Under the pieces are notes generated by a model that was not told the DNA's origin, made no database searches, and saw only the letters and a program-made list of their open reading frames with translations. Of a stretch of 64,000 bases of DNA, positions 13,629 to 51,190 are shown piece after piece (within the stretch, counting starts at the first letter, position 1; each line of letters opens with the position of its first letter). Position numbers and translations under genes: made by a program. Source of the stretch: Methanomassiliicoccaceae archaeon DOK (GTDB taxonomy: Archaea > Thermoplasmatota > Thermoplasmata > Methanomassiliicoccales > Methanomethylophilaceae); the NCBI GenBank assembly GCA_009911715.1, contig CP047880.1:1488001-1552000 (forward strand), read 5' to 3'.

Positions 13629-16551
<2,923 letters not shown>

Positions 16552-30661: not shown

Positions 30662-32143
30662 TCAGAGATACCTGCGGTAGTCGTACCTGCCGTCGGCGAT
30701 CCTGGCGTTGACCTCGTCGGCGACCCTCTCCAGGTCGTCCGGCTCGAACAGACCGGAGGTGATCTCCTTGAACCCGACGGATGACATCATGTTCACCGTG
30801 CACTGGGCGAGACCGAAGGGCCTCTGAAGCGGTCCGGAGGTCACACGGGTGAACTGCACCTTGTCGTAGTTGATGAACTCGGTGCATATGTCGTAGCCTC
30901 CGTAGACGAACATGAACGAGTCCTTCCCGGTGTCGAACGTGCGGTGCCTCTGCGCCATGCCTGAGCGGCCGAAGATCAGTATCGGGACGACCACTGCGGC
31001 GAAGAGCTCCGTCGCCCTGACTGCAAGTGTCAGCGTCTCGCTCTCCCCGACGAGGTAGGTCTCGGCGGTGAAGAACAGGGCCAGACAGACGCCCACGATG
31101 AACACCGTGGCGATGGCGTCGGTGATGAGCATGGGAACCAGGGCCCTTCTGGGCTGACGCTCCGGCGCGGACTCGAACACCAGCTCGGGGAGGAGCCTGT
31201 TCAGGACGTCCTCCACGTCCTTCCTGCCCTTGAGGGGACAGAGCACGGGGGCGTTGTTGTTGTCCTCATCGGCCATCCCGACGACCTCGGCCTCGAGCAT
31301 GGCCTTGTGGAACAGCCTGGCGAGCAGGGGCTCCCTTATCCTGACTGAGTTGATCTTGTTGACCTTGAACGAGCGGCGCTGGGATGTTATGAGTCCGCTC
31401 TCGACGGTCACGGTGTCTCCGACCCTGTAGATCCTGTAGTTGTAGTACTTGAGGATGACAGAGATGAATGGCAGAACCTCTCCTATCCCGAACAGGACGA
31501 TGGCTGTAAGGAATCCGCCGCTGCTCTCTGCGAACAGCATCACGACGGCGTAGAACAGCATCAGCAGACCGAACAGGGCCTGCCAGGTGGGCTGCCCCAG
31601 TATCGCATGTAGGACGATGTCCGCGTTTGACACGCGGACCAGCGTCTGGCATTCGACGAGCTCCTGCTCGACGGTGACCTGCTTCTCGAAGATCATGGAG
31701 TTCAGCTGGTCCCTGAGACGGTCGGCCATCTGCTTCTTGAGGACCAGGGTCGCCTCGGCGGAGGCGGCGTTCATGCTGGAGTTCACGTTGAAGATCAGGG
31801 TGGAGGTCCCGAAGATCCTGTTGACCAGATCCCTCTTGACCCCGACGGATGCGAGCCTCGTGTACTGGATGTGCTTGTCCATCTTGTAGATGGCATCCCT
31901 CGTCACATGGATCTCGCTGTCCTCGAACACGTAGAACGTCCTCTTCCAGAAGAAGTAGGCCCAGCCCAGCGTGGCCAGCATGACGAGCGCCACTATGATG
32001 ATGGTCTCGAACTTGTTGTCCCAGGCGTACTCCCTGAGACTGAGGAAGACCAGGACGATCATCACGATGGCAGCGGTGAGCAGGTAGCTCACGATGACCG
32101 ACGGGTGATTGCGGAACACGCGCTTGCTCTCATCCTGCTGCAA
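30662..32143 (-). CDS. PH-domain (DUF304/YdbT-like) membrane protein
   Basis: A 493-aa integral membrane protein with bacterial-PH (bPH2, DUF304) domains between pairs of transmembrane helices, similar in layout to B. subtilis YdbT. Helices are near residues 18-34, 45-64, 195-210, 214-232, 345-365 and 382-398. PH segments include FYVFEDSEIHVTRDAIYKMDKHIQYTR-like, RIYRVGDTVTVESGLI and CTEFINYDKVQFTR. The start is TTG 32143, one base after the stop of the smaller PH gene, so translation is probably coupled. In bacteria ydbS-ydbT pairs have been linked to membrane stress or exported-toxin resistance; the role here is unknown. Confidence 0.8.
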   Translation of the reverse strand: MQQDESKRVFRNHPSVIVSYLLTAAIVMIVLVFLSLREYAWDNKFETIIIVALVMLATLGWAYFFWKRTFYVFEDSEIHVTRDAIYKMDKHIQYTRLASVGVKRDLVNRIFGTSTLIFNVNSSMNAASAEATLVLKKQMADRLRDQLNSMIFEKQVTVEQELVECQTLVRVSNADIVLHAILGQPTWQALFGLLMLFYAVVMLFAESSGGFLTAIVLFGIGEVLPFISVILKYYNYRIYRVGDTVTVESGLITSQRRSFKVNKINSVRIREPLLARLFHKAMLEAEVVGMADEDNNNAPVLCPLKGRKDVEDVLNRLLPELVFESAPERQPRRALVPMLITDAIATVFIVGVCLALFFTAETYLVGESETLTLAVRATELFAAVVVPILIFGRSGMAQRHRTFDTGKDSFMFVYGGYDICTEFINYDKVQFTRVTSGPLQRPFGLAQCTVNMMSSVGFKEITSGLFEPDDLERVADEVNARIADGRYDYRRYL

Positions 32144-32144
32144 C

Positions 32145-32675
32145 TCAGTCCCTCTCCTTCAGGAGCTTGATGACCTTCTCGTTAAGCTTGGACGCGATAG
32201 CCTCCGCGACATCGGATTTAAGGTACTCGATGGTCACGACGCCTCCGGCGGTCGTGATGTTGACGTTGGCGAGACCGTACATGCGGTTGATGGGGCCCTC
32301 CGAGACGTCCACCTGATGGACCCTCTCGATGGGGACCATGTCGTGCGTGATGTAGATAATCCCCCTGCGGACCTCGATCTTGTCGTCGTCCATCCTGTAC
32401 CTGTAGCGCATGTACGTGATCTGCGGCTCCACGAGCCCGTAGACCCCGATGACGACGAGCAGGACGTACATGCAGATGCATGCGGTGTCGTAGTAGTCCC
32501 CGATCTAGGCATCCCCGTATCTGACGACCAGCAGGATTATGGCGGCGGCGATGACGAAGAATATGACGTTGCCGAGATACATCGACTTCTTGCTCTCGGG
32601 TTCGAGACATCTGTAACCGTCAACGGTAAGGCCGTTCTCGTCGACCTTGAAGCGGTTAACCTTCCCATCCTTCAT
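32145..32675 (-). CDS. PH-domain (YdbS-like) membrane protein with in-frame TAG (candidate pyrrolysine codon)
   Basis: Read as one gene, this encodes 176 aa with a single TAG at codon 57 (32505-32507). Before it: a cytosolic N-terminus with LEPESKK, then TM1 (about residues 33-51). After it, in the same frame: 11 codons leading straight into TM2 (MYVLLVVIGVYGLV), then a bPH2 domain (RMDDDKIEVRRGIIYITHDMVPIERV, VTIEYLKSDVAEAIASKL). Neither half alone makes a YdbS-like protein; together they do. Start ATG 32675 with GGGGA upstream. It leads the large PH gene at 32143. UAG read-through as pyrrolysine, recent pseudogenisation or a sequence error are the options. Confidence 0.65.
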
Positions 32676-32700
32676 AAATTCCCCATCGGAGGATCGATAT

Positions 32701-32717
32701 TTAACGATAATCGTTAA
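32701..32717 (-). promoter_or_regulatory. palindrome in PH-gene promoter
   Basis: The perfect inverted repeat TTAACGAT-A-ATCGTTAA starts 26 nt upstream of the ATG at 32675, overlapping a TATA-like ATATTTAA. It is a candidate operator controlling the PH-domain pair. Confidence 0.5.
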
Positions 32718-32723
32718 ATCAAA

Positions 32724-34725: not shown

Positions 34726-34974
34726 TCAGATGACCGTCGAGGAGCCTTCCAGATACACCGTGTAGAGATCCTCGCCGACGATGGTCTCCGTCACGAGGTT
34801 CTGGGTGCGGTACCCGTCGGAGTCCTCGTAGATGTCGACGTAGATGCGGTAGTCTCCCACCTGCATCTCTCTCCTGTCCTCGGAACCGTCGTCCATTTAG
34901 AGGTACGAGAACAGCAGACAGACGACGATGACGACCGCCGCCACGCCCATGAGCTTGACGTTGTTACTGTTCAT
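34726..34974 (-). other. small membrane-anchored ORF split by an in-frame TAA
   Basis: ATG 34974 opens a 25-codon stretch (MNSNNVKLMGVAAVVIVVC, then LLFSYL) that is a single transmembrane helix and ends at TAA (34897-34899). The next codon, in the same frame, is ATG, opening a 56-aa acidic segment (MDDGSEDRREMQVGDYRIYV, with a GEDLYTVYLEG end) that stops at TGA 34726-34728. It is either one 82-residue tail protein broken by a stop mutation or two overlapping mini-genes. No known family. The rest of 34560-35091 shows only promoter-like AT stretches and the rps10 terminator. Confidence 0.4.

Positions 34975-49720: not shown

Positions 49721-51190
<1,470 letters not shown>

Follow-up and report, generated by a model that had tools for sequence, protein, structure and literature searches.

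An in-frame UAG codon, probably decoded as pyrrolysine, in a YdbS-like membrane PH-domain gene of a Methanomassiliicoccales archaeon

Archaeal genetic codes in which all TAG codons stand for pyrrolysine were reportedly described in 2025. Among individual proteins, pyrrolysine has been physically observed in the tRNA-His guanylyltransferase (Thg1) of Methanosarcina acetivorans where, as recounted in PMC2933860 (citing Heinemann et al. 2009), it is not essential for function. For Candidatus Methanomethylophilus alvus, 16 non-methylamine pyrrolysine proteins have been predicted (PMC4153887, Table 7), and PMC5011839 mentions 46 genes with in-frame amber codons, methyltransferases included, in the methanogenic archaeon ISO4-H5, of which 17 code for hypothetical proteins. 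The share of TAG among stop codons is 1.6% in M. alvus and 11.3% in M. luminyensis (PMC4153887). Here we describe a YdbS-like gene with a single in-frame TAG from a Methanomethylophilaceae archaeon (Methanomassiliicoccales), a methanogen of gut type, whose genome is one contig of 1,889,135 bases and is 99.79% complete; its nearest relative in our comparisons is the Candidatus Methanomethylophilaceae MAG CALUHQ010000014.1 (88% protein identity).

The YdbS-like gene and its codon 57

The gene occupies 32145..32675 on the minus strand of the window (the whole stretch of 64,000 nucleotides analyzed here) and reads in one frame from an ATG at 32675 to a TGA at 32145, comprising 176 codons with the TAG of codon 57 (32505..32507, minus strand) as the sole internal stop. 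A sequence-only reading of the window had reported this single TAG, leaving the strand unstated, and had taken the sequence on both sides of it to be coding; both points stand. Under the codon usage of this genome, the 56 codons upstream of TAG57 score 26 nats and the 119 codons downstream score 64 nats, while the orthologues run through the position without a stop; the gene is thus strongly coding on either side, with homologous coding sequence flanking the TAG as expected of a pyrrolysine protein.

The Pfam bPH_2 domain (PF03703, E=6e-17) covers residues 88-162, entirely 3′ of TAG57. In the AlphaFold2 model (mean pLDDT 82.5), a helix hairpin (residues 26-53 and 55-90) is followed by a beta-rich domain and then a C-terminal helix. 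This arrangement, a pair of transmembrane helices leading into a bPH_2 domain with another bPH_2 gene adjacent, is that of a YdbS-like membrane PH-domain protein. The model refines the earlier placement of codon 57 in the loop between TM1 and TM2: the inter-helix break falls at residue 54, so that residue 57, at the hairpin apex, belongs to the opening turn of helix 2 and not to a long loop.

The second gene of the bPH_2 pair is YdbT-like, has two bPH_2 matches (30662..32143, minus strand) and is intact. Its TTG start directly abuts the TGA of the YdbS-like gene and its GGAG motif sits within the 3′ end of the latter, in line with the coupling of the two genes proposed earlier. On the other side, a palindrome recognized by inspection, TTAACGATAATCGTTAA (32701..32717), overlaps an A+T-rich box located about 21-26 nt before the YdbS-like start. 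The palindrome is possibly an operator or promoter, and it is absent upstream of the nearest orthologue. A search of 32100-32720 for a PYLIS-like element gave no Rfam match at E-values of up to 5, while an mtmB gene does contain a PYLIS_1 match, with a score under the gathering score; according to PMC9499178, a PYLIS element is not required for UAG decoding. Elsewhere in the window, a short ORF (34726-34974, minus strand) without a Pfam match has an in-frame TAA past a signal-anchor-like stretch, directly followed by an ATG, and the 23S and 16S rRNA genes are widely separated (13634-16546 and 49722-51190), scattered rRNA genes being known for the Methanomassiliicoccales (PMC4153887).

Matches to the YdbS-like protein were found in 93 of the 147 genomes of the order that were searched, and none of these except the host has a stop in the matched stretch. 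The matched orthologues are nearly always one gene, and because the parts before and after codon 57 share a reading frame in them, we reject the view that these parts are two distinct genes. In the nearest orthologue codon 57 is TGG (Trp), a single G-to-A change away from TAG, while the other orthologues have Trp, Val, Ile, Leu, Ser, Gln, Thr, Asp, Phe, Tyr, or a gap. The alignment of orthologues at this residue, which the sequence-only reading had proposed as a check, accordingly returned sense codons, with TAG conserved in no matched relative. An unconserved TAG at a variable site, with no PYLIS-like element behind it, is not what would be expected of a functional pyrrolysine of the methylamine methyltransferase type. 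In comparison with the nearest relative, the part upstream of TAG57 has a dN/dS of 0.23 and the part downstream one of 0.09, falling to 0.026 in the PH domain (19 synonymous and 2 non-synonymous changes). Selection downstream of TAG57 is therefore strongly purifying, though it may predate the TAG since the collections hold one close relative only.

Pyrrolysine genes and the use of TAG in the genome

The genome encodes a complete pyrrolysine system in the order pylT-pylS-pylB-pylC-pylD, so that the search for pyl genes suggested along with the initial observation came out in its favor. The pylS and pylD genes exceed their curated cut-offs (270 and 203 bits, respectively), pylB was identified via homology across the order, and pylC is the ORF located between pylB and pylD. 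The tRNA-Pyl gene, with the anticodon CTA, precedes pylS by about 21 nt and begins GGAGGGCGGTCCGGCGACCAGCGGGTCTCTAAAACCTAGCC; it was located via the TCTAAA motif and its position beside pylS, an ARAGORN run having given no tRNA-Pyl in the host genome. It folds as a tRNA-Pyl cloverleaf with an imperfect anticodon stem, a feature that PMC3941956 describes for the Methanomassiliicoccales, and near-identical copies stand beside pylS in two relatives. Adjoining the pyl genes are two mtmB genes and one mtbB gene, all with an in-frame TAG. A single aRF1 gene scores above cut-off, and pylS is also present in all ten relatives tested. The host thus has pylS, pylBCD and a tRNA-Pyl(CUA), the equipment required for a pyrrolysine protein.

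Two of these genes have unusual boundaries. The pylB gene (L038:11610-12665; genome C1:1271610-1272665) ends in TAG, after which 24 more sense codons overlap the start of pylC. The same ending is seen in 10 of the 30 pylB genes most similar to it in the order, its own included (loci L084-L113), and in all of the six closest, again with the host's own, in a group where TAG stops otherwise account for about 1%. All ten TAG-ending pylB genes have a backup TAA or TGA 19-24 codons further on, overlapping pylC. A TAG stop in pylB is likewise mentioned in PMC2933860 for M. mazei, M. acetivorans and M. burtonii. Such a stop may be a pyrrolysine feedback device, with possible autoregulation of pyrrolysine synthesis. 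As for pylC, it seemingly lacks a normal start at the expected place (L038:12667-12690; genome C1:1272667-1272690): the codon there is ACG, in contrast to the ATG that the translations of relatives suggest, and the first in-frame ATG, GTG or TTG is a GTG at L038:12682.

Stop-codon statistics were drawn from 684 kb of stretches, amounting to 36% of the genome. The 677 called genes or gene pieces therein end in TGA (594), TAA (58) and TAG (25). Inspection of the 25 TAG ends assigned about 10 to longer genes interrupted in frame, and most of the others have scores like those of antisense noise. This leaves about 4 plausible real TAG terminators among some 650 genes (~0.6%), namely those of pylB, of a carbonic-anhydrase-like gene, of a short ORF and of an MBL-fold gene that has a TGA one codon further on.

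Apart from the YdbS-like gene, the 684 kb contain at least six non-methylamine genes with a single in-frame TAG. In the Hcp/prismane gene (L051:1878-3458) a Pfam match over 19-519 spans TAG257, which is one step from the GAG of relatives; in the AMP phosphorylase-like gene (L059:8638-10164) TAG413 falls between the catalytic and C-terminal domains, where relatives have CAG, one step away, or GAG. The remaining four are a GNAT gene (TAG58), an MFS gene (TAG156), a DUF3784 gene (TAG83) and Cas1 (L062:8769-9677), for which an in-frame TAG is also reported in M. alvus; a TerB-like gene is a possible further case. Among close relatives, this genome alone has the Hcp and AMP phosphorylase TAGs, so such codons enter genes singly and without being conserved.

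The same sample yielded no convincing case of a gene interrupted by TAA or TGA. In-frame coding pairs across TGA, some of which were checked against Pfam, look like adjacent genes with a start just past the stop or like antisense shadows, and two weak TAA-split candidates gave no Pfam match when tested. Were the three stops equally likely in decaying genes, the chance that all seven interrupted genes carry TAG would be about 5e-4 by our own arithmetic. In sum, the host genome behaves as a UAG-decoding genome.

Accounting for UAG57

Together with the complete pyl system, this behavior gives good support to reading codon 57 as a candidate pyrrolysine. Neither a genome free of pyl genes nor orthologues with the halves as separate intact genes, two findings that the sequence-only reading had named as refuting it, turned up. 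The proposal of a candidate outside the methylamine enzymes therefore holds, with TAG-poor stops on its side; the special standing first accorded to it does not, such TAGs being common in this genome and already published. We posit that TAG57 is very likely a lineage-specific and nearly neutral TGG-to-TAG change rescued by general decoding of UAG as pyrrolysine. An ancestral Trp codon would have mutated to TAG in this lineage, and the substitution would be tolerated because the position is a variable one at the turn between two membrane helices. Pyrrolysine would be made constitutively or nearly so and the tRNA-Pyl reads UAG, on account of which ribosomes would mostly place pyrrolysine at 57, Pyl-tRNA beating aRF1 often enough for the full 176-residue membrane PH-domain protein to be made. 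The residue itself would have no special role, the UAG having been acquired neutrally under general UAG suppression. We infer as most likely the incorporation of pyrrolysine at 57, its efficiency and the neutrality of the change.

Termination at UAG57 would instead yield a fragment of 56 residues that has a single helix and lacks the PH domain. A recent nonsense mutation of this kind, with UAG terminating efficiently in an inactivated gene whose frame has not yet decayed, would fit the restriction of TAG57 to this one species among the matched genomes, and with a single close relative for comparison the mutation may be of any age. Yet the gene shows no other disruption and its YdbT-like partner is intact; moreover, the full pyl system, the avoidance of TAG as a stop and the presence of TAG rather than TAA or TGA in interrupted genes all speak against it, making inactivation unlikely. 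An artifact of sequencing or assembly, the true codon being TGG, would need just the single G-to-A difference from the nearest relative. However, TGG could equally turn into TGA by error, similar TAGs recur in at least six other non-methylamine genes, and the genome is a single contig at 99.79% completeness; we regard such an error as highly improbable.

UAG57 might also be read ambiguously, with both products being of importance: a short supply of pyrrolysine would give the fragment and an ample one the full protein, which would make the gene pair responsive to supply. Competition between aRF1 and Pyl-tRNA is given as the accepted model in PMC9499178, and as the second gene has its ribosome-binding motif within the end of the first, termination at 57 could lower the amount of the second protein too. 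Such dual use is nonetheless very unlikely, given that TAG57 is conserved in no relative and that position 57 tolerates many residues. The more specific idea that UAG57 serves as a sensor of pyrrolysine supply, and hence of methylamines, tuning the amount of the bPH_2 pair in one lineage, is extremely improbable.

Comparison with described pyrrolysine proteins

With routine decoding as the preferred account, the gene offers a clear example of UAG drifting into ordinary genes, the close relative having a Trp codon at the same place. In-frame UAG codons of this kind would hinder the loss of the pyrrolysine system, a proposal made in PMC4153887, and standard gene callers will split or truncate the affected genes in these genomes.

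Thg1 of M. acetivorans is a different protein in a different order of methanogens, and pyrrolysine was seen there, whereas for the YdbS-like protein it is predicted. Closer to the present case is M. alvus, which belongs to the same family as the host and shares with it both rare TAG stops (1.6% in M. alvus) and sporadic, unconserved in-frame TAGs; its set of pyrrolysine proteins, like the genes found here, includes Cas1, an acetyltransferase and a transporter, while its Table 7 (PMC4153887) names no bPH_2 or YdbS-like protein. ISO4-H5, from the same order, resembles the host in having in-frame TAGs across unrelated genes; the YdbS-like protein is not among the genes named in the portion of PMC5011839 drawn on here, 17 of the 46 being hypothetical. 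Since the decoding of UAG as pyrrolysine by general suppression has already been described for many genes in the order, the phenomenon itself is documented, and what is new is most likely this bPH_2 gene as a further, ordinary example of it.
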